DNA from: Roseobacter sp.
GTDB lineage: Bacteria > Pseudomonadota > Alphaproteobacteria > Rhodobacterales > Rhodobacteraceae
Reading direction: 5' to 3'
DNA: 64,000 nucleotides
Assembly: GCA_002731875.1 (NCBI GenBank)
Contig: PCCY01000023.1
Span: 62,001-126,000 of the forward strand
Part shown: positions 21,925 through 36,987 of the stretch, piece by piece
Position numbering within the stretch: position 1 is the first letter of the stretch
How the letters are laid out: every line of letters begins with the position of its first letter
Position numbers and translations under genes: made by a program
Notes under the pieces: model-generated
Told to the model about the DNA's origin: nothing
Databases searched by the model: none
Seen by the model: only the letters and a program-made list of their open reading frames with translations

Positions 21925-22719
21925 TCAGGCTTGGGTCAAGATATCATTGCCCTCCCTCTGTTTCCGCGCCGCTACGGCTGCACTGGCTTTGAAGCGGAAG
22001 CTGTCATTGCCGGTCTCAAGGATGTGGCAGCGGTGGGTCAGGCGGTCGAGGAGCGCGGTCGTCATTTTGGGATCACCGAAGACCGTGGCCCATTCGCTGA
22101 AGCTCAGGTTCGTGGTGATGACAACGCTGGTGCGTTCGTAAAGTTTGCTGAGCAGATGGAAGAGTAACGCGCCGCCTGATGCGCTGAACGGCAGGTAGCC
22201 GAGTTCGTCCAGGATCACGAGATCAAGACGGACAAGGCTTTCGGCGAGATGCCCAGCTTTGCCTTTGGCCTTCTCCTGTTCGAGCGTGTTAACGAGCTCA
22301 ATTGTTGAGAAGAAGCGGACCTTGCGGCGATGATGTTCGACGGCCTGCACGCCGAGGGCGGTGGCAATATGGGTTTTTCCAGTGCCGGGGCCGCCGATCA
22401 GGACAACGTTCTGCGCGCCGTCCATGAACTCACAGCGATGAAGCTGCCTTATAGTGGCCTCGTTGATCTCACTGGCCGCGAAGTCGAAGCCGGAGAGGTC
22501 CTTGTAAGCTGGGAAGCGGGCCGCCTTCATGTGATAGGCAATGGACCGGACCTCACGTTCTGCGACCTCAGCCTTCAGCAACTGGGCGAGCATAGGCACC
22601 GCGGCGTCGAATGCCGGTGCGCCTTGTTCCATCAGGTCGGTGACGGCCTGTGCCATGCCGTGCATCTTCAGGCTGCGCAGCATGATGATGATGGCGCCGC
22701 TGGCAGGATCATGACGCAT
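21925..22719 (-). CDS. istB: IS21-family helper ATPase IstB (copy 2)
   Basis: 264-aa IstB ATPase with Walker [14 protein letters not shown], Walker [13 protein letters not shown] and [12 protein letters not shown]. It overlaps the end of istA by 11 nt. Full length for the family and apparently intact. Confidence 0.93.
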
Positions 22720-24241
22720 GGCGGCCTCCTGCGCTCAGTGCACGCAGATCGTCATAGCGTTCGACATTGGCCTCTGGCTCGCTGCGCAGAGCAAGCGCTT
22801 GCGGTGTGTCGATGTTAGGCCCGCCGGTCGTCTTTCTGTCGATCAGCCGGTGCAGAAGATTCAGGATATGGGTTTTTGTGGCGACACCCTCGGCCAAGGC
22901 CATTTCCACGGCGACCAGCACAGCCTGTTCATCGTGATGCAGAACCAGCGCCAGGATATCGACCATTTCTCTATCACCGCCATGGCGGCGCAGCATGAGG
23001 TCTTGCAGCTCTTTGAAGGCCGGAGGGAATTCCGCAAAAGGCGCGCCGTTCCTGAGCGCCCCTGGTTTGCGCTGAAGGACCGCCAGATAATGCCGCCAAT
23101 CGTAGATTGTCCGTGGTGGGAGTTGATGGCTTCGCTCAATCACCCGCACATGCTCGCACAGAATCTGACCCTCGGCAGCGACTACCAGCCTGTCCGGATA
23201 GACGCGCAGACTGACGGGGCGGTTCGCAAACGACGCCGGGACGCTATACCGATTGCGCTCGAAGCTAATCAGGCACGTTGGGGAGGCCCGTTTACTGTGC
23301 TCGACAAACCCATCGAAGGCGGGTGGCAACGGCATCAGCGCGGTCTGCTCTGCGGTCCAGACGTCAGCAACACTCCCGGGCAGTGCTGCATGCGGGATCT
23401 CGTTCCACAGCGCAACGCAGCGCTGTTCCAGCCAGTCGTTCAGCGCCGCAAGATCGGGAAAGCTCGGCATAGGTTGCCACAGACGGTGCCGAGAATCCTG
23501 CACGTTCTTCTCGATCTGCCCCTTCTCCCAGCCCGCCGCAGGATTGCAGAACGCAGGCTCGAACACATAATGGTTCGCCATCGCGAGGAAACGCATGTTG
23601 ACTTGTCGCTCCTTCCCGCGACCGACGCGGTCGACCGCAGTGCGCATGTTATCGTAGATCCCGCGCTCCGGGATGCCGCCAAAGACACGGAATCCGTGCC
23701 AGTGGGCATCAAACAGCATCTCATGCGTTTGCAGCAGATAGGCCCGAACCAGAAACGCTCGGCTGTGCGACAGCTTGATGTGGGCGACTTGCAGCTTGGT
23801 GCGCTCGCCACCCAGAACGGCAAAATCCTCGCTCCAATCAAACTGGAAGGCCTCGCCCGGGCGAAACGACAGGGGCACGAAGGTGCCGCGCCCTGTCGTT
23901 TGCTGCTCCCGCTGCCGATCAACCCGCCAGTCACGCGCAAAAGCCGCGACCCGGCCATAGGACCCGTCAAAGCCGAGAACCACCAAATCTGCGTGCAACT
24001 GCTTCAGCGTTCGCCGCTGTTTGCGCGACTTGCCCGCCTCCGTCTTCATCCAACCGGCAAGCTTCTCAGCGAAAGGATCAAGCTTACTTTGACGCTCCGG
24101 GGTCATGAATTGCGGCTCTATCGTGCCCGCGTTCAGATATTTTGTAATCGTATTGCGCGACAAACCAGTGCGTCGCGAGATCTCACGGATCGATAGCTTC
24201 TCCCGCAAAGACATCCGTCGAATAATGTTCAAAAGTCCCAT
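22709..24241 (-). CDS. istA: IS21-family transposase IstA (copy 2)
   Basis: 510-aa DDE transposase. The N-terminal HTH ([20 protein letters not shown]) is followed by catalytic Asp in [13 protein letters not shown], Asp in [12 protein letters not shown] and Glu in [11 protein letters not shown]. The start [10 protein letters not shown] is preferred over a reading 60 nt longer because it matches family N-termini. Confidence 0.92.
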
Positions 24242-24354
24242 GTGTATCACTCCGCTGCTCCCCGTTGCGCATCGCGCTGGGGAAAGGGTCACATGGCTCA
24301 AATCTCAGTGGAAATTTTCCGTCTATCCGGTTCACTTCTGTGTGGAAATCTACA

Positions 24355-26720: not shown

Positions 26721-27791
26721 TTGAGCTTCGATGTTGCTGCCTATTTCAACTCTATTTACCATCATGATCTCGTATCTTGGCTATCCAGAGCTGAGGCATC
26801 GGAAAGGGATTACCAATCTTTTGGGCAGTTTCTCCGAGAAATAAATTCAGGGCGTTCAGTCGATTGTCTTCCTCAAGGAATTTACCCGACAAAAATGATA
26901 GGAAACGATTTCCTTCGCTTTATCGAGCAATTTCACGGATTGCGCAGCAATGCAGTGGTCCGATTTATGGATGATTTCGTTCTGTTCTCTGACTCGCGCC
27001 GAGATCTTCGTCATGACTTCATTACGATTCAACGGTTATTGGGTGAGAAGGGCTTGTCGCTAAATCCGAATAAGACAAGCGATGGGGTGCGGGAAAACGT
27101 TGAACTTGAAGATGCAATTGAAGATGTAAGGATACAGCTGCTTCAAAGAAGGCGAGTTGTTGTCACCGACTACGATGGCGTGCCGGATGAAGAGGTCGAA
27201 GTCGAACAGGATCTATCAGAGGAAGAGATGGACTTCCTTAGAGGGCTGCTACAACAGGATGATATCGAAGAAGAGGATGCCGAACTGGTTCTGGCGTTAA
27301 TGGCCGAGCACGCGGAGGAAGCGATTGATCGTCTTGCAGACATCGCGCGCCGCTTTCCACATCTATTTAAGAACATTCACTCTTTCTGCCTTGAGGCTGG
27401 AGACGAAGAAGCTGTAGCTGAATTTGTCTTGGAGCTACTTCGTGACAATGATGCAATGATCTACGAATTTCAGCTTTTTTGGTTGACCCATATTCTTGAG
27501 GATCGACTTCTCAACACCACTTCAGCGGCCGAGATCATTGATAGGCTGAACAACCACCCACACGCTACCTCTATCTCAAGAGCCAAACTTCTCGAAATAC
27601 CCGACTTGAGATATGGTCTGGTAGAACTGCGAGATACCCATTTGGGAGCTGGTCAATCTGATTGGTTGTCTTGGTCAAGCGCGGTGGGCCACAGGGGGTT
27701 GAATATGATCGATCGCCGTCACAGATTGGGCTACTTCGCCAAAGCATCAAACTACAACAAGCTCGTATTCGATATAGTATCGAAGGGTTGA
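26721..27791 (+). CDS. Defence-type reverse transcriptase, N-terminus missing
   Basis: 356 residues from the TTG shown; the frame stays open upstream to 26553 without a usual start codon. RT motifs are present in order: motif A FDVAAYFNSI (Asp4), motif B LPQGIYPTKMIGNDFL, the catalytic RFMDDFVLF (Asp84, Asp85) and GEKGLSLNPNKT. A helical C-terminal domain of about 230 residues follows, containing an acidic stretch (EEEMDFLRGLLQQDDIEEED). The organisation is like Abi/DRT-type antiviral reverse transcriptases, not group II introns. The finger segments RT1-RT2 that should precede motif A are absent or only partly encoded in the open frame upstream (FRGYKGAIAAYRNEFRY), so the gene is probably 5'-truncated. 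A structured non-coding stretch precedes it. Confidence 0.75.
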   Translation: MSFDVAAYFNSIYHHDLVSWLSRAEASERDYQSFGQFLREINSGRSVDCLPQGIYPTKMIGNDFLRFIEQFHGLRSNAVVRFMDDFVLFSDSRRDLRHDFITIQRLLGEKGLSLNPNKTSDGVRENVELEDAIEDVRIQLLQRRRVVVTDYDGVPDEEVEVEQDLSEEEMDFLRGLLQQDDIEEEDAELVLALMAEHAEEAIDRLADIARRFPHLFKNIHSFCLEAGDEEAVAEFVLELLRDNDAMIYEFQLFWLTHILEDRLLNTTSAAEIIDRLNNHPHATSISRAKLLEIPDLRYGLVELRDTHLGAGQSDWLSWSSAVGHRGLNMIDRRHRLGYFAKASNYNKLVFDIVSKG

Positions 27792-28749: not shown

Positions 28750-31467
28750 ATGAACCCGGTTGAGATCGAACAGGCCATCTCTGAGCTTGCTGAGGCCCCC
28801 TTCGACGCGGCTGAATTCCCCTTTGCCTTTCTCGAAGCCTTCGGGCGCAAAGCCACCGAGATCAAGAAGCTGCGCAAGGGCGAAACGAACAAATCCGATC
28901 TTGGCGGGGTCCTGCAACGCAACAACATCCATATCGCCACCTGCGCCCTTGGCGCGGTCTCCGACACCCTCGCGGCACTCAAAGATAGCGCGGCCACCAC
29001 CAAGTTCAAAGCCAAGTTCATCCTCGCTACCGATGGTCAGGAGTTCGAGGCCGAGGACCTGATCGGCGGCGAAACCGTCGCCTGTACCTTTCAGCAGTTC
29101 CCCGATCATTTTGGCCTCTTCCTGCCCCTCGCGGGCATCTCTACTGTCAAACAGATCCGCGAGAGCGCCTTTGACATCAAGGCCACGGGCCGGCTGAATC
29201 GCCTTTATATCGAACTGCTGAAGGACAACCCCGACTGGGGCACTGCCGAGCGCCGCCATGACATGAACCACTTCGTGGCGCGGCTCATCTTCTGTTTTTT
29301 TGCCGAGGATACAGACATCCTGAATGGGGAAGACCTGTTCACCGCCACCGTGGACCAGATGTCAAACCGCGACGGCTCCAACACGCACGAGGTCATCTCG
29401 GAAATCTTCCGTGCGATGAACACTGCTATCCCAAAACGCGCCGCCGCCAATCTGCCCCGCTGGGCGGATGCCTTTCCCTATGTGAACGGCGGGCTGTTTT
29501 CGGGCAGCACCGAGGTGCCGCACTTTTCCAAGATCGCACAGCGCTACCTGAGCCATATCGGCGGGCTGGACTGGACCAAGATCAACCCTGACATCTTCGG
29601 CTCCATGATTCAGGCCGTCGCGGATGAGGACGAACGCTCTGTCCTTGGAATGCACTACACCTCTGTGCCGAACATCCTGAAGGTGCTGAACCCGCTGTTT
29701 CTGGATGATCTGAACGCCGCGCTGGAGGAGGCAGGCGACAACCGCCGCAAGCTGGCCAACCTGCGCGCCCGCATTGCCAAGATCCGTGTGTTCGACCCGG
29801 CCTGTGGGTCGGGCAACTTCCTCGTCATCGCCTATAAGGAACTGCGTGCGATCGAGGCGGTGATCAACGAAAGACGAGGGGAGGCGGACCGCAAGACGGA
29901 CATCCCCCTGACCAATTACCGCGGGATCGAGCTGCGCGATTTCTCGGCCGAGATTGCGCGGCTGGCGCTGATCATCGCGGAATACCAATGCGATGTGACG
30001 TATAGGGGGCAGAAAGAGGCACTGGCCGAATTCCTGCCCCTGGACAGCCAGAACTGGATCACCTGCGGCAACGCCCTGCGGCTCGACTGGCTTTCGATCT
30101 GCCCGCCTACGGGGACGGGAGTAAAGTTCCAATCCGAGGACCTGTTTCAAAGCCCGCTGGATCAAGCGCAGATTGATTTCGAGAATGAAGGGGGAGAGAC
30201 GTATATCTGCGGCAACCCGCCTTATCTCGGCGCAAAGAAGAAATCGAAAGAGCAATCGGAGGACATGGTGCATGTAGGCCTTGGGAAATCACAACTCCTG
30301 GACTACGTTTGCGCGTTTATTGTTAAAGGCCTTGAGGTAGTAGAGAAAACCAATTGCAGCATGGCGTTGGTCTCCACAAGTTCGATCTGTCAAGGTGAGC
30401 AGGTGTCTCTGCTGTGGCCTGATGTGCTAAAGCGAGCATGCCTGAATTTTGCATTCGTACCCTTCAAATGGGCTAATTCCGCTGCGAATAATGCGGGCGT
30501 CTGGTGCACGATACTCGGCTTCGGTGCAGCCGGAAAAAAGCAGAGGAAGCTTTTTGATGGGGGGAAAGTAAGAATTTGTGACAATATTTCTCCATACCTC
30601 GTGCCTGGACCGGATACCATTTGTATGCCGAGTGACCACCCTGTTTCAGACCTTCCAAAAATGAGAATGGGTAGCAATTCAGTTGACGGAAGGCGATTAA
30701 TATTGGAGCCAGGTGATGTTATGGAAATCGTCAAATCCTACGCAGACGCCGAGCCCTTTATGCGAAAATATGGCGGCACTAAAGAAATGCTGTCAGGTAA
30801 ACACAGATGGTGTGTTTGGATCGAAGAGGACAGAGTCCCTGCTGCTTTGTCGATCCTTCCAATCGCCCGAATAGTAGATGAATGCAGGAAGTATCGGCTT
30901 GGAGCAGGCCGCGACGCCAGAAAAGCTGCTATCCGACCTCATGCCTTTTGTTATTCAACATATGAAGATCGAAATTTTATTCACGTTGGGAATACAATTG
31001 GCAACTCATTAGACTACGTCCCTGCGGATTTGCGTAGATCTGGTTATGTTTCCAATCATAATGCTTTCACGATTTACGAAGCTGAGAACTGGGTATTTGG
31101 TGTGATTGTATCAGTAATGCATCGCGTGTGGGCTGAAGCAATTTCTGGGAGGCTCGGTAATGGTACAAGATACGGCAATACCGTGGTCTATAACACCTTC
31201 CCCGTCCCCAAACTCACCGAAAAGAACCGCGAGGATCTGACCCGCTGCGCCGAAGATATCCTTCTGGCCCGCGAGGCGCACTTCCCCGCCACCATCGCCG
31301 ATCTTTACAACCCCGAAACCATGCCCGAAAACCTCCGCGCCGCCCACGACCGCAACGACGAAACCCTCGAACGCATCTACATCGGCCGCCGCTTCAAAAA
31401 CGACACCGAACGGCTGGAAAAACTGTTCGACATGTACACTAAGTTGACCACGAAGGTGATGGCGTGA
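28750..31467 (+). CDS. N6-adenine DNA methyltransferase (MmeI/PglX-like)
   Basis: 905-aa class I SAM-dependent gamma-type methylase. Motif I VFDPACGSGNFL begins at Asp349 and motif IV NPPY at Asn489. The N-terminal 340 residues are helical with no PD-(D/E)XK signature in the usual MmeI place, so cleavage is presumably done by partner proteins. The C-terminal 350 residues form the target-recognition and helical bundle region. It would mark host DNA at adenine. The start has a strong GAGGAG. The stop overlaps the GTG of the next gene as GTGA. Its last 25 codons recur in degenerate form 1.3 kb downstream. First gene of a five-gene operon. Confidence 0.88.
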   Translation: MNPVEIEQAISELAEAPFDAAEFPFAFLEAFGRKATEIKKLRKGETNKSDLGGVLQRNNIHIATCALGAVSDTLAALKDSAATTKFKAKFILATDGQEFEAEDLIGGETVACTFQQFPDHFGLFLPLAGISTVKQIRESAFDIKATGRLNRLYIELLKDNPDWGTAERRHDMNHFVARLIFCFFAEDTDILNGEDLFTATVDQMSNRDGSNTHEVISEIFRAMNTAIPKRAAANLPRWADAFPYVNGGLFSGSTEVPHFSKIAQRYLSHIGGLDWTKINPDIFGSMIQAVADEDERSVLGMHYTSVPNILKVLNPLFLDDLNAALEEAGDNRRKLANLRARIAKIRVFDPACGSGNFLVIAYKELRAIEAVINERRGEADRKTDIPLTNYRGIELRDFSAEIARLALIIAEYQCDVTYRGQKEALAEFLPLDSQNWITCGNALRLDWLSICPPTGTGVKFQSEDLFQSPLDQAQIDFENEGGETYICGNPPYLGAKKKSKEQSEDMVHVGLGKSQLLDYVCAFIVKGLEVVEKTNCSMALVSTSSICQGEQVSLLWPDVLKRACLNFAFVPFKWANSAANNAGVWCTILGFGAAGKKQRKLFDGGKVRICDNISPYLVPGPDTICMPSDHPVSDLPKMRMGSNSVDGRRLILEPGDVMEIVKSYADAEPFMRKYGGTKEMLSGKHRWCVWIEEDRVPAALSILPIARIVDECRKYRLGAGRDARKAAIRPHAFCYSTYEDRNFIHVGNTIGNSLDYVPADLRRSGYVSNHNAFTIYEAENWVFGVIVSVMHRVWAEAISGRLGNGTRYGNTVVYNTFPVPKLTEKNREDLTRCAEDILLAREAHFPATIADLYNPETMPENLRAAHDRNDETLERIYIGRRFKNDTERLEKLFDMYTKLTTKVMA

Positions 31468-32780
31468 GCCTTAAAAATAACGACGCCCATTTGCCGACAC
31501 TGGATGATCTGGAAATCCTGTTCGTCAACAATGCTGATCTGGACAATATCCGCGCCCACCTCAGCCGCTTTAACCCCATCAAGACCATGGGCATGGAGCG
31601 GATGGAAATCCGACACTCTGCCATCCTTGGCTGGCTGCTGAACCCCCAAGAAACCCATGGACTGGGAGATACCTTCCTCAAGGCGTTTCTGGCCCAAGCT
31701 ATTCGCGACGATAACAGCAAAGCACGTCCAACAGCGCTGGATGTCTCGCAAGCGGATATGATGGATGCAGAAATCAGGCGTGAGTGGCGCAACATTGATC
31801 TGCTTGTTCTAAGTCCCCGCAATGGCTGGGTCTTTGTGATCGAGAACAAATTCGATAGCGGTCAGCATAGCAACCAGTTGAAACGATATATGGACGTAGT
31901 GAATGCGACTTTCATTGGGTCGGACAGCTTTCACTTGGTGCGCGGGATATTTGTGACCCTTTGGGAAGAAAAGCCCGAAGACGATCGATACGCGGCAATT
32001 GAATATGGCACTATCTGCGAGTTGTTACGTCAGACCGCGTTGTCGGGTCGGCAGCCGTTGACGCCGGAAGTCCAAACATTTTTGAAGCATTATTTAGACG
32101 TTATTCGAGAGGCGACAGGCATGAGCGATGAGCAAGCCGAAATGGAGAAACTGGCACGGCAACTCTACCGTGATAACAGGCGTGCGCTTGATTTTATCGT
32201 GGAGCATGGAAAGAGCACGGACTTCTCTTTTGCGTGTGATGCGGTGTTTGGTGAAGACCTTGAAGACGAAGCAGTAATCAAAGTTGGAAAACGGGAGTTT
32301 ATTTTTAATCACTCGGATGCTCAGTCATTCAGTTTTGTACCGAAGGCTTGGTATGATGCGTTTGGGGGTGATGAATACTGGTGGCATGGCTGCGAGAACT
32401 GGTGGGCAGGCTTTCCCCTCATTACCTGGATCCAGCTTACAAGTGATGCGAATGGAGCCAGTGGTCAGGTTCGCCTGTACGCGGAGGTTGGCCCTCTCAG
32501 CGATCATGACTTTAGGCGCGACTTGATCGCTGCCATTACGGATGTGGCAAAGAAGAAATCATTGACGACTATTGGTTTTCAACGTGGCGCGGCCGACGAG
32601 GGCAAAAAGTATTCAAAGTTCTTCAAGAAAAACTTCTTTGCAGTCGATGACATCCATGATCACGACAAGATCTCAAATGCCATCAAGAAGGCCCTGAAGT
32701 CTTTTGAGGCCGAGATGGACGTTGTTGCTAAGGTTTTGCCTCAGTTCGTATCGCACGGCCAGGAAGAGAGTTCGGAATGA
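31464..32780 (+). CDS. PD-(D/E)XK nuclease-family protein
   Basis: 438-aa protein with a restriction-endonuclease fold in the N-terminal 150 residues: WRNIDLLVLSP (Asp112) and WVFVIENKFDSGQHSNQL (Glu127, Lys129). This is typical of PD-(D/E)XK proteins placed next to methylases and phage-defence genes. The C-terminal 250 residues are less clear, with an aromatic-rich segment DEYWWHGCENWWAGF. The start is a GTG overlapping the methylase stop. It is bounded on its 3' side by a degenerate copy of the methylase tail, so the whole gene looks inserted into the operon. The likely role is DNA cleavage of unmodified or phage DNA. Confidence 0.78.
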   Translation: MSLKNNDAHLPTLDDLEILFVNNADLDNIRAHLSRFNPIKTMGMERMEIRHSAILGWLLNPQETHGLGDTFLKAFLAQAIRDDNSKARPTALDVSQADMMDAEIRREWRNIDLLVLSPRNGWVFVIENKFDSGQHSNQLKRYMDVVNATFIGSDSFHLVRGIFVTLWEEKPEDDRYAAIEYGTICELLRQTALSGRQPLTPEVQTFLKHYLDVIREATGMSDEQAEMEKLARQLYRDNRRALDFIVEHGKSTDFSFACDAVFGEDLEDEAVIKVGKREFIFNHSDAQSFSFVPKAWYDAFGGDEYWWHGCENWWAGFPLITWIQLTSDANGASGQVRLYAEVGPLSDHDFRRDLIAAITDVAKKKSLTTIGFQRGAADEGKKYSKFFKKNFFAVDDIHDHDKISNAIKKALKSFEAEMDVVAKVLPQFVSHGQEESSE

Positions 32781-32809
32781 TTGGGTGTTCCCAACGCGAT
32801 GCGGGGCTT

Positions 32810-32884
32810 TTCAAAAACGACAATGGACGGGTGGAGAAGTTGTTCGACATGTACATCATGGTGACTATGAAGGTGTCGTCATGA
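32810..32884 (+). repeat. Degenerate duplicate of the methylase 3' end
   Basis: 75 nt here match the last 75 nt of the methylase gene (31393-31467) at about 58 of 75 positions, with the same length and reading frame. Both read FKND..R.EKLFDMY....KV and end in TGA. Each copy's stop overlaps the start of the following gene (GTGA and ATGA). The copy therefore marks a repeated junction on both sides of the PD-(D/E)XK gene. Confidence 0.82.
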
Positions 32885-33768
32885 CGGATTTTAACAGTAT
32901 GACTTTGATGGCTGCTGGCGAGATGATTGCTGAAATGTCTACCAAAGCTGCATTCTCATCGTTGGTTTTGAGTTGGGACGTCGATGAGTTCTGTGGTTCT
33001 GGGTCTGTTGCCTCGAAGGCAAATGATCTTGTGAAGTTCGCGAAGAGCGACATGGGAGGCCAGAGATCTGTTCCAACGGCCAACGGCCGATGCGAGCTTC
33101 CAAGAGCCATGATCGAACATGCCATAACAGCTCCGGAACAATCGAAGCGTAACTGTCCTGATGCTTGGTCGCGGCTTGTTGCGGGCCTGAAGATGGACGG
33201 TTTCGAGATCGGAGAAGAGAAGCTTCCTGATCCCTCTGGCCGGCAATCCATTTTTGAAGACGGTCCTATCAAGATCGCAAGGCCAACTCTGAGACGGATG
33301 CTGCCTCAGTCCGTGCCGGGCTTGAATTTGCGAGCAGCCGACGACGAAATAACGACCTTGCTGAAGAAGCATGGTTTTCCCACGGCTTTGGGACACCTGC
33401 AGCAAGCGACGGCCACGTTTCAAGGTGGCCACTGGTCCAGCGCCAACGCGATGATACGAGATTTCTACCAAGAACTTTTAGATAAAATCGCCGAACGCTT
33501 TGGATGTGATCCAAAGGTCAGTGATGATCAGAAACGCCAATATCTTGCTCAAGAAGCCTCCGGCCCGTTTCTCTATCACGAATACAATGAGTGGGAGAAC
33601 GATAGAGGTAAGCCAGCTTATGTATTGGGGCTGTGGGCAAGGCTTCATCCTCACGGTAGTCACCCAGGTCTTTCTGATGAAGATGATTGCGCTTTTAGAT
33701 TTCAGATAATTTTGATTACCGCACGAGTTTTCCTAAGGCGTTTTGATAAGAGAGTTAGCCCCAAATGA
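32881..33768 (+). CDS. Unknown protein of restriction-like operon
   Basis: 295-aa protein of no family I recognise with confidence. The N-terminal part contains SKANDLVKFAKSDMGG. The middle carries TLRRMLPQSVPG. Residues 175-215 (QGGHWSSANAMIRDFYQELL) resemble the helical C-terminal region of abortive-infection (Abi_C/HEPN-like) proteins. The start ATG overlaps the stop of the duplicated methylase tail, and the stop overlaps the helicase ATG, so it is translated as part of the operon. It may be a helper or toxin-like component. Longer upstream readings run through the degenerate repeat and are rejected. Confidence 0.65.
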   Translation: MTDFNSMTLMAAGEMIAEMSTKAAFSSLVLSWDVDEFCGSGSVASKANDLVKFAKSDMGGQRSVPTANGRCELPRAMIEHAITAPEQSKRNCPDAWSRLVAGLKMDGFEIGEEKLPDPSGRQSIFEDGPIKIARPTLRRMLPQSVPGLNLRAADDEITTLLKKHGFPTALGHLQQATATFQGGHWSSANAMIRDFYQELLDKIAERFGCDPKVSDDQKRQYLAQEASGPFLYHEYNEWENDRGKPAYVLGLWARLHPHGSHPGLSDEDDCAFRFQIILITARVFLRRFDKRVSPK

Positions 33769-35810
33769 CCAAATCCGTCCCCTCTGTCTGTGTTTCTTAT
33801 CCTGCCAATGGCAGTTCAACCACGTCCAACGAAATGGGCATGCGCGCCATGCAGGAACGCGCCTACGAGAAGCGGGGGGAGCAGTACCTGCTGATCAAAT
33901 CGCCGCCCGCTTCGGGGAAAAGCCGTGCGTTGATGTTCATCGCGCTCGACAAGCTTCACAATCAGGGCCTCAAACAGGCGATCATCGTGGTGCCCGAGAA
34001 ATCAATCGGGTCAAGCTTTGCCGATGAACCGCTGACCAAATTTGGCTTCTGGGCCGATTGGACCGTCGCGCCGCGTTGGAACCTGTGCAATGCGCCGGGG
34101 GGCGATGACGGCAAGGTCGGGTCAGTGCGCTCATTCCTCGATAGCGATGATCAGATCCTTGTTTGCACCCACGCCACCTTCCGTTTTGCGGTGGATAAAT
34201 TCGGGATCGAGGCCTTTGACGATCGGCTGATCGCGGTGGACGAGTTCCACCATGTCTCGGCCAACCCTGATAACAAGCTGGGCGCGCATCTGGGGGAGAT
34301 GATCGCCCGCGATAAACTGCATGTGGTCGCCATGACCGGTTCCTACTTTCGCGGCGATACAGAGGCTGTGCTGGGCCCAGAGGACGAAGCCAAGTTCGAG
34401 ACAGTCACCTATACCTACTATGAACAGCTCAGCGGCTATACCTACCTCAAGACGCTGGACATCGGGTACTTCTTCTACAGCGGTTCCTATGCGGATGACC
34501 TGTTGAAGGTCTTGGACCCTGATGAGAAGACAATCCTGCACATCCCCAATGTGAACTCCCGCGAGAGCACCAAAGACAAGCATCGTGAGGTTGAACATAT
34601 CCTGGATGCTTTGGGAGAATGGCAGGGGACCGATGCTGAAACTGGGTTTCAGCAGATCAAACGGCCCGATGGGCGTGTGCTGCGGGTCGCGGATTTGGTG
34701 GATGATGAAGCCGCCAAGCGCGAGCGGGTTTCTGCGGCGTTGAAAGATCCCAAGCAGAAGAACAACCGCGACCACGTAGACATCATCATCGCGCTTGGCA
34801 TGGCCAAGGAGGGGTTCGACTGGATCTGGTGTGAACATGCGCTGACGGTCGGCTACCGGTCCAGTCTGACCGAGATCGTGCAGATCATCGGGCGTGCAAC
34901 ACGGGATGCCAAGGGCAAGACCCATTCCCGCTTCACCAACCTGATTGCCGAGCCTGATGCCTCTGAGGAAGCCGTCAAGGAGGCTGTGAACGATACCCTC
35001 AAGGCCATCGCCGCCAGCCTGTTGATGGAGCAGGTGCTGACACCCAAGTTCGAGTTCAAGCCCAAGGTTGCCACCAATACGGCGCAGGAGGGTTTTGACT
35101 ACGGTGAGGGGGGCTTCGATCCGGAAAAGTGCAATGTCGGTTTCAACGAGGACAGCGGCAAGTTCCAGATAGAGATCAAGGGTCTGACCCAACCCAAGAG
35201 CCCGGAGGCCAGCCGGATCTGCGAGAACGATCTGAACGAGGTCATCACGGCCTTTGTCCAGGATAAGACCACCATAGAGCGCGGGCTGTTTGATGAAGAG
35301 CTTGTACCGGAAGAACTCACCCAAGTCCGGATGGGCAAAATCGTGCAATCCAAATTTCCCGAACTTGATGCGGAGGATCAAGAGGCCGTGCGGCAACATG
35401 CTGTCGCGGCGCTGAATTTCACGCAACAAGCCAAAAAGACCTTGCTGGGTGATGACACAGAAGCGCAGGCCAGCACCGCCTTTGTGACTGGGGTCCGGCA
35501 GTTCGCAATGAATGTCCGCGATCTTGATATCGACCTCATCGATCGTATCAACCCCTTCAGCGAGGCCTATGCGATCCTGGCTAAGACCATGAGTGAAGAT
35601 AGCCTCAAACAGGTCGCTGCTGTTATCGAGGCCAAGAAGATCAAGCTTACCCCAGAGGAGGCCCGGGATCTCGCCAAGCGGGCCTTGAAGTTTAAGCAAG
35701 AACGGGGCGTTTTGCCGTCAATGACCTCTTCGGACGCGTGGGAAAAGAAAATGGCTGAAGGTGTCGCATATCTGGCGCGGATGAAGCAGGAGGCGATGAA
35801 TGCCCAGTGA
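33765..35810 (+). CDS. DEAD/DEAH-type (SF2) helicase
   Basis: 681-aa superfamily 2 helicase. Walker A is the segment IKSPPASGKSRALMF, motif II is AVDEFHHVSANPD, motif III is VAMTGSY, and motif VI is QIIGRATRDAKG. The C-terminal 250 residues are an uncharacterised helical domain. It resembles the translocase subunit of type I/III restriction and related defence systems, where ATP-driven DNA movement accompanies cleavage. It is coupled to the previous gene by ATGA and overlaps the GIY-YIG gene by 11 nt. Confidence 0.85.
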   Translation: MTKSVPSVCVSYPANGSSTTSNEMGMRAMQERAYEKRGEQYLLIKSPPASGKSRALMFIALDKLHNQGLKQAIIVVPEKSIGSSFADEPLTKFGFWADWTVAPRWNLCNAPGGDDGKVGSVRSFLDSDDQILVCTHATFRFAVDKFGIEAFDDRLIAVDEFHHVSANPDNKLGAHLGEMIARDKLHVVAMTGSYFRGDTEAVLGPEDEAKFETVTYTYYEQLSGYTYLKTLDIGYFFYSGSYADDLLKVLDPDEKTILHIPNVNSRESTKDKHREVEHILDALGEWQGTDAETGFQQIKRPDGRVLRVADLVDDEAAKRERVSAALKDPKQKNNRDHVDIIIALGMAKEGFDWIWCEHALTVGYRSSLTEIVQIIGRATRDAKGKTHSRFTNLIAEPDASEEAVKEAVNDTLKAIAASLLMEQVLTPKFEFKPKVATNTAQEGFDYGEGGFDPEKCNVGFNEDSGKFQIEIKGLTQPKSPEASRICENDLNEVITAFVQDKTTIERGLFDEELVPEELTQVRMGKIVQSKFPELDAEDQEAVRQHAVAALNFTQQAKKTLLGDDTEAQASTAFVTGVRQFAMNVRDLDIDLIDRINPFSEAYAILAKTMSEDSLKQVAAVIEAKKIKLTPEEARDLAKRALKFKQERGVLPSMTSSDAWEKKMAEGVAYLARMKQEAMNAQ

Positions 35811-36987
35811 TTTCACAGATGACGATGATGCTCTTCTTGCTGAGCTCGGCGTTGAGATCGAGCAGAAGAAACGGGTCAAAAGAACGCCGCGTGAAGAGCG
35901 CATCATCGCGGGGTTTGAGGATGTCCAGAAGTTCGTCACAGATCATGAGCGCTTGCCTGGGCATTCACCAGGTGGGGATATCTTCGAGCGACTATACGCA
36001 GTCAGGTTAGACCGCCTGCGTGAGTTGTCGGAAGCACGTGATCTCCTTGAACCTCTTGATCATCAGGGGCTGCTGAGCGCGCCCCCTGCTATGGACCAGA
36101 GCGATGATATGGACGACGACGCCTTGCTCGCGGAACTTGGTGTGGACATCGCCCCATCAACAATAACCGAGCTCAAGCATGTCCGCTCCGCGTCGGAAAA
36201 GAAGGCTGCAGAGAATGTTGCCAATCGTGCGGAATGCAAAGATTTTGACGAGTTCCAGCCTTTATTCGAAATGGTTCAGCGTGATTTGGACAGTGGTCAA
36301 AGGGAGACCCGCCCATTTGAGCTGAAAGCTGAAATCGAGCCCGGACGGTTCTTCATTGTCCACGGACAGAAAGCCTATGTTGCCGACATGGGCGAGGTGA
36401 CCCTCACCGATCAAGGTCGAACGGATGCCCGGCTACGGGTTGTCTTTGACAATGGTACCGAAAGCAAAATGCTTATGCGTTCTTTGCAACGTGCGTTGAA
36501 CAGCGATGAAGCAGGCCGGCGCATCACAGAACCCCTGGCTGGCCCCCTGTTCTCTGACGCTCCCGAGGAAGGGGACGATACCACCGGCGCAATCTACGTG
36601 CTGCGCAGTAGGTCAAACAATCCGACCGTTGCTGCGAACCGTGATTTAGTGCACAAGATTGGCGTCACGACAATGAGCGTCGAAAAACGGATCGCGGGAG
36701 CACATTTGCAGCCAACATTTCTGATGGCACCGGTCGACATCGTGGCAACATACGAGCTTTACAACATCAACCAAACCAGGCTCGAAAACCTGATCCACCG
36801 GATATTTGACAGTGCACGGCTCGACATTCAAATCGAAGACCGATTTGGCCGCCCTGTTGTTCCACGAGAATGGTTCCTGGTGCCACTCTTCGCAATCGAT
36901 GAAGCCGTTCAGAAGATCAAGGACGGTACGATCACCCAGTTTGTGTATGACCCTCAGCAAGCAAAGCTTGTACTACGGCCCTCGTGA
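35800..36987 (+). CDS. GIY-YIG nuclease-family protein (T5orf172-like)
   Basis: 395-aa protein. The C-terminal 130 residues carry a GIY-YIG-type core: GAIYVLRSRS, then HKIGVTTMSVEKRI, an Arg-bearing helix, and a final Glu region (NQTRLENLIHRIF), as in T5orf172/MUG113 domains. The N-terminal part contains two copies of DDDALLAELGV(E/D)I, about residues 8-20 and 105-117, each at the head of an acidic segment, suggesting repeated binding elements for a partner such as the helicase. It ends the five-gene operon. Nuclease activity is inferred from the domain. Confidence 0.8.
   Translation: MPSDFTDDDDALLAELGVEIEQKKRVKRTPREERIIAGFEDVQKFVTDHERLPGHSPGGDIFERLYAVRLDRLRELSEARDLLEPLDHQGLLSAPPAMDQSDDMDDDALLAELGVDIAPSTITELKHVRSASEKKAAENVANRAECKDFDEFQPLFEMVQRDLDSGQRETRPFELKAEIEPGRFFIVHGQKAYVADMGEVTLTDQGRTDARLRVVFDNGTESKMLMRSLQRALNSDEAGRRITEPLAGPLFSDAPEEGDDTTGAIYVLRSRSNNPTVAANRDLVHKIGVTTMSVEKRIAGAHLQPTFLMAPVDIVATYELYNINQTRLENLIHRIFDSARLDIQIEDRFGRPVVPREWFLVPLFAIDEAVQKIKDGTITQFVYDPQQAKLVLRPS

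Follow-up and report, generated by a model that had tools for sequence, protein, structure and literature searches.

In the 64,000-nucleotide (nt) stretch of Roseobacter sp. contig PCCY01000023.1 analysed here (assembly GCA_002731875.1, positions 62,001 to 126,000 of the forward strand; hereafter the window), five genes on the + strand between 28750 and 36987 encode a DNA methylase, a PD-(D/E)XK nuclease, a 295-amino-acid (aa) protein designated P3, a helicase and a GIY-YIG nuclease. We consider it quite likely that this locus represents a restriction-modification (RM) operon of the DnmA-YeeB-YeeC kind, in which the junction between methylase and helicase serves as a slot for cargo genes that are exchanged by recombination. 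The core is of a kind already known, while the slot and the scars left within it are well supported by the sequence comparisons given below. All five open reading frames (ORFs) were found to be open, on the + strand and at the coordinates given in a preliminary description of this DNA, of which the proposal of a multi-gene modification-restriction locus stood, and the proposal that the whole five-gene set forms one system with no described match did not. The further statement of an overlap between each gene and its successor does not hold at one of the four junctions, where a gap of 100 nt lies between the end of the PD-(D/E)XK gene (32780) and the start of P3 (32881); at the other three the genes do overlap, by 4, 4 and 11 nt.

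The methylase, helicase and GIY-YIG core

The methylase (28750..31467, 905 aa) is a MmeI-family DNA methyltransferase of the DnmA/YeeA type that carries all five Pfam MmeI domains (MmeI_N, helical spacer, N6-adenine methylase, target recognition domain [TRD] and C-terminal domain), in which it resembles the type IIL/IIG enzyme MmeI; the closest solved structure is MmeI 5hr4 (1e-124), and PADLOC labels the protein as 'type IIG restriction enzyme-methyltransferase' (1.3e-256). MmeI holds the nuclease motif in its own polypeptide, whereas the window methylase lacks this motif and is followed by a separate helicase and nuclease. The absence of an obvious nuclease domain, as noticed in the preliminary description, was borne out in that MmeI_N is present and yet the loose pattern D-x(6-30)-[DE]xK is missing from residues 41-110; among the relatives, the pattern was found in this region, which is otherwise well conserved, in only 9 of 93 methylases. 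The alignment to 5hr4 starts at residue 88, and from the position that we take the nuclease motif to have in MmeI, the nuclease region should lie ahead of residue 88 in this alignment.

The helicase (33765..35810, 681 aa, YeeB type) is a superfamily 2 (SF2) protein with a DEAD/ResIII match, and its Walker A GKS, DEFH and QIIGRATR motifs are invariant in a six-row alignment (A1). The last gene (35800..36987, 395 aa, YeeC type) encodes a nuclease with a T5orf172/MUG113 domain at the C-terminus, of which Y266, K286, G288, R297 and E329 are invariant in 99 of 99 relatives. These matches, together with Pfam PDDEXK_4 for the second gene, agree with the earlier assignment of two nuclease-type proteins and an SF2 helicase behind the methylase. 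The arrangement is far beyond chance, because the junction from helicase to GIY-YIG gene is tight (-24 to +126 nt) in all 103 loci of the 106 surveyed in which it could be measured (three could not). Helicase relatives were found in 264 plasmid records, in 22 of 193 relatives of this genome and in 27 viral contigs.

The three genes agree in domains and order with dnmA(yeeA)-yeeB-yeeC of Bacillus subtilis and relatives, described in PMC7261158 and PMC9973331 as a homologue of MmeI that lacks the endonuclease motif, with an SF2 helicase and then a T5orf172/GIY-YIG protein behind it; the likeness was drawn from domains and gene order. It is because of this equality of domains and order that, for the core, the very match to a named system that the preliminary description had put forward as its refutation was found, in place of the claimed absence of any named system with matching genes. 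The two loci differ in that helicase and nuclease are reported to follow the methylase as first and second gene in dnmA-yeeB-yeeC, whereas two cargo genes and a gene-end fossil intervene in the window. The name YeeB is taken from one plasmid annotation (NC_019327) and from PMC9973331, and the B. subtilis control genome contains a MmeI methylase. In the same two papers (PMC7261158, PMC9973331) the cluster is said to be conserved across species and suggested to be Type I-like RM. By these likenesses the window core is a restriction-modification operon of the already described DnmA-YeeB-YeeC kind.

Type I, type III, BREX, DISARM and solitary type IIG systems were rejected on the domain and PADLOC scans and on the absence of the nuclease motif from the methylase. 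The preliminary description had likewise set the first four aside, in agreement with PADLOC, which gives none of their other components among the five proteins: no HsdS- or HsdR-type match was detected in Pfam, PADLOC or NCBIfam, and no BREX or DISARM component (PglZ, BrxC, DrmA-C and similar) in PADLOC, in which PglX and DrmMI appeared as partial methylase matches only.

The slot between methylase and helicase

The methylase-helicase junction was surveyed with the helicase as bait in a total of 106 loci, which include 76 of 80 genome contigs (the best 80 of 553 relatives; L023, L044, L092 and L099 lack the methylase end), 10 hand-picked plasmid loci (L011 lacks the methylase end), 19 of 20 stretches from relatives (L128 duplicates L028), and the window; 27 viral helicase loci stand outside this tally. 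The junction is shorter than 100 nt in 37 loci, 177 nt in one and at least 300 nt in 68, the longest being 6993 nt, and when empty it measures about 38 nt in some relatives. Judged from these loci, the junction is a cargo slot that holds exchangeable extra genes, many of them predicted defence or toxin genes. The two middle genes of the window, PDDEXK_4 and P3, are best read as replaceable cargo instead of subunits, because they sit between core genes, and relatives with this core have different genes, or no gene at all, at this place.

By Pfam and PADLOC scans of family representatives, the recurrent cargo comprises a 137-aa family (12 loci), SLFN_AlbA/HATPase (9), PDC-S67 (7), RhuM (PDC-S05; 7), a 277-aa family (6), P3 (5, and the window in addition), another GIY-YIG-like family (5), a family that PADLOC matches weakly to type IV enzymes (5), a family of 260 aa (4), YhcG/PDC-S02 (3), BrnT (2), GmrSD_N (2) and the window PDDEXK_4 family (2). 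The representatives of the 137-, 277- and 260-aa families gave no match in Pfam or PADLOC. Among the single cases are AbiEii with DUF6088 and Fic (L069), CcdAB (L127), a zeta toxin (L136), DarT (L142) and DUF559 (L082).

The first cargo gene of the window (31464..32780, 438 aa, GTG start) matches Pfam PDDEXK_4 (5.1e-24) and, over nearly the full length, the PADLOC candidate PDC-S26 (4.1e-80). The PDDEXK_4 D...ExK residues are present, and the NID...ENK residues of the window protein recur in its relatives in L142 and L165. These two relatives, and a third in L023 of which the C-terminal part is seen at a contig end, lie in the slot directly before the helicase. The slot of L142 (3993-7644) holds three cargo genes at once, a DarT-like gene, GmrSD_N and the relative of the window PDDEXK_4 protein.

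Between the two cargo genes of the window we identified a fossil (32810..32884), a decayed copy of the last 24 codons and stop of the methylase, of which the stop shares bases with the P3 start codon (gene at 32881..33768). It matches the present methylase tail at 55 of 72 nt, compared with 33 for the next best site in the operon and at most 41 in 300 codon shuffles. Scars of core-gene ends were also found in relatives: a duplicate of the helicase head (aa 1-37) stands between two cargo genes in L002, L028 and L032, and likewise in L143. The mid-gene profiles of helicase and methylase detected nothing in the slots, and no core-gene profile matched the reversed slot DNA. The fossil suggests that P3 was present in the window before PDDEXK_4; the older order would have been methylase-P3-helicase, with PDDEXK_4 arriving later together with the present methylase end, and in L002, L028, L032 and L143 the newcomer would have entered on the helicase side. 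A link between the fossil and the P3-bearing relatives was sought without success, the methylase ends of L043 and L020 being closer.

In order to follow the turnover, cargo labels were placed on a tree of 85 helicases (without L015, L018 and 19 later loci), where 26 labels need 43 changes, and the unannotated 277-aa family alone, present in 6 rows, needs 6. Shuffled labels need 50.9 changes on average versus the 43 observed, and for this reason cargo content is tied only weakly to descent. Near-neighbour pairs were picked by hand, 27 for protein comparison and 13 for DNA profiles. Among 13 pairs with different cargo (2 unreadable, 11 compared) the helicases are 95-99% identical and the last 82 aa of the methylase 82-100% identical, and the TRD is just 33-54% identical; the DNA identity profiles of near pairs drop and rise at the borders of TRD, methylase end and cargo. 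Of 66 filled loci, 60 have a lower G+C content at third codon positions (GC3) in the cargo than in the helicase, and in 63 of 65 loci the GC3 of the TRD is likewise below the helicase value. The GC3 values of the window are 0.73 in the methylase front, 0.42 in the TRD (30607..31215, Pfam MmeI_TRD, the variable module that diverges in near pairs), 0.81 in the conserved methylase end, 0.58 and 0.50 in the two cargo genes and 0.72 in the helicase. The methylase C-terminal domain (31219..31464, about 240 nt) is proposed as the left homology arm of the slot.

Proposed mechanism and alternative readings

In the proposed mechanism, the methylase would mark adenines at an asymmetric site set by the TRD, and the helicase would translocate unmarked DNA, which the GIY-YIG protein would cut; cleavage would thereby have passed from the dead N-terminal domain of the methylase to a separate protein. 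The cargo genes would supply second-line effectors riding on the expression of the operon, in the window a PD-(D/E)XK nuclease and possibly an RNase-like HEPN protein. Homology arms for cargo exchange may be provided by the conserved C-terminal end of the methylase and by the 5' end of the helicase, and imperfect recombination would stack new cargo beside old and leave a gene-end fossil. We hold it an even question whether the operon is, more broadly, a modular defence platform, in which TRD and cargo slot are independently exchangeable with the recombination arm of about 240 nt between them and with stacking that leaves fossils, and in which the unnamed residents, P3 and the families of 137, 277 and 260 aa, represent new defence proteins of the second line that phage blockage of the core may release.

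That defence genes can nest within defence operons is, in principle, known. DarTG2 lies between hsdS and hsdR, at a site described as a possible hotspot of recombination (PMC12255303), TgvAB lies within a type I RM cluster (PMC11411939), PrrC is embedded in a restriction operon (as cited in PMC12707154), and the PADLOC 'PDC' candidates were found via their embedding in defence operons (PMC10855318). As in the window slot, DarTG2, TgvAB and PrrC are independent effectors nested at a favoured junction of a restriction operon, but the host operon is another one, and the window adds the core-gene recombination fossils between stacked cargo. In the literature searched we found no report of the slot or of fossils of this kind; the Payne et al. 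2024 preprint, which we know via citations, may include the host operon. An odd five-gene operon thus turns out to be a readable record of defence-gene swapping, in which the slot is fixed, the arms can be recognised and the scars tell in what order genes arrived. The slot offers a route to list new defence candidates, as several recurrent cargo families have no Pfam or PADLOC match, and it allows a direct test of why defence genes nest, whether because they share expression, because they guard the restriction core or through recombination alone.

A number of observations weigh against the exchange of cargo in a functional restriction operon. The function of the locus is inferred from sequence, and the survey, baited with the helicase, covers its closest relatives and is no random sample. 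Only 30 of 82 inner branches of the helicase tree are strongly supported, the others being weak, and cargo is partly inherited, as its labels are more clustered than in the shuffles. The divergence of the TRD may reflect fast evolution instead of exchange; the TRD differs also between pairs with the same cargo (L010/L021, L002/L032 and L053/L058), and hence TRD and cargo are not exchanged together as a rule. As to the fossils, the one in the window is nearest to the methylase ends of L043 (58 of 72 nt) and L020 (56 of 72), both carriers of other cargo, and the methylase ends of the P3 carriers L002 and L032 match it at 52 and 51 of 72 nt, so that these comparisons name no donor lineage. A possible methylase tail in L139 is less clear and overlaps a weak helicase-head match, and weak slot matches to the GIY-start profile (0.033 to 0.42) and once to the helicase-end profile (0.94) were taken as chance. 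Finally, according to PMC7261158 and PMC9973331, deletion of the three genes in B. subtilis left plasmid uptake and infection by three phages unchanged, and the authors suggest that the cluster is a relic; deletions of dnmA and yeeB in Vibrio crassostreae are cited there as raising the sensitivity to some phages.

It is rather unlikely, in our judgement, that the slot is a chance insertion site within defence islands, with cargo unlinked to the function or expression of the core. Such a site would agree with the diversity of the cargo families, some of which are known elsewhere, with the common occurrence of toxin-antitoxin genes as mobile passengers, and with the presence of VapC-like genes in 9 and HigA-like genes in another 9 of 91 loci directly upstream of the methylase, where they end at or within about 20 nt of its start, often with a 4-nt overlap (no such toxin-antitoxin gene abuts the methylase in the window). 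However, insertions are found at just one of the two internal junctions of the core, and all 70 recurrent cargo ORFs counted read in the direction of the operon, although the ORF caller favoured the + strand; in many of the cargo ORFs the start or the end is only a few nt away from a core gene.

We regard it as improbable that the locus is a decaying relic, in which an orphan methylase serves as epigenetic regulator and the genes behind it are passengers, the reading put forward for B. subtilis. The negative phage and plasmid tests cited above favour a relic, and the fossil does record a past rearrangement. On the other hand, all five frames of the window are open, the helicase and GIY-YIG motifs are conserved in relatives, and the slot keeps gaining new genes. 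Moreover, in the same B. subtilis papers (PMC7261158, PMC9973331), YeeB and YeeC of B. subtilis are stated to lack C-terminal stretches found in Vibrio.

A single obligatory multi-subunit system with PDDEXK_4 and P3 as true components, the proposal of the preliminary description, would fit the common strand, the short junctions, with 4 nt of overlap on either outer side of the middle pair, and the recurrence of P3 in the slot of several relatives, but it is very improbable and was rejected on the slot survey, since 37 of the 106 loci have no gene-sized room and others hold unrelated families, P3 occurs without the core in seven of eight plasmid loci examined (L003-L009), and the methylase fossil and the 100-nt gap part the two middle genes.

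The P3 protein and neighbouring genes

P3 had been singled out as an unknown component, in accordance with the scans of Pfam, NCBIfam and PADLOC, in which the window protein found no model match at E up to 10. Its profile gave only chance-level matches against PDB sequences, and no useful match was obtained against viral models; among viral contigs, relatives were detected by profile search (two) and none by single-sequence search. The family is portable. In slots it occurs in L002, L027, L032, L033 and L126, in all five directly behind the methylase, as well as in the window; it lies behind the methylase also in L146 and before the helicase in L011. Plasmid relatives were found in 35 records, and among the eight examined, that of L002 is in the slot. 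On a Bradyrhizobium plasmid (L004, 5646-7795), the P3 relative follows directly behind a DUF6088/AbiEii pair, for which reason P3 may ride in other defence operons too. Other relatives apart from the core lie near a HEPN/Toprim-associated gene (L006) and beside a kinase (L007).

The AlphaFold2 model of P3, of moderate quality (pLDDT 70.2, pTM 0.51), has an all-helical C-terminal domain. Foldseek with this model gave the best probabilities for 1o3u (0.93), 2q00 (0.89), 3c18 (0.87) and 2hsb (0.85), at E-values of about 1 and with none at E ≤0.001; two of these top four (1o3u and 2hsb) are named HEPN, and the others are related helical proteins. All 11 relatives have H256 and H261, and a preceding R (Rx4-6H), counted by eye, is present in 6 of 11. 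As the HEPN proteins have the best Foldseek probabilities but share no sequence-family match with P3, and the R is present in only these 6 relatives, P3 is only tentatively regarded as HEPN-like, as a lead and no result.

Outside the operon, a reverse transcriptase ORF (26721-27791, + strand) matches Drt5 from profile position about 130-136 onward; it is probably decayed, because its N-terminal part is missing and stops stand in the same frame upstream. A transposase-like ORF at 22709-24301 (- strand) has, by eye, the appearance of IS21 (IstA). The segment 39160-42599, with a MerR-like regulator, small membrane and heavy-metal-type proteins and a reductase-type ORF (translations judged by eye), is probably a mercury resistance cluster.

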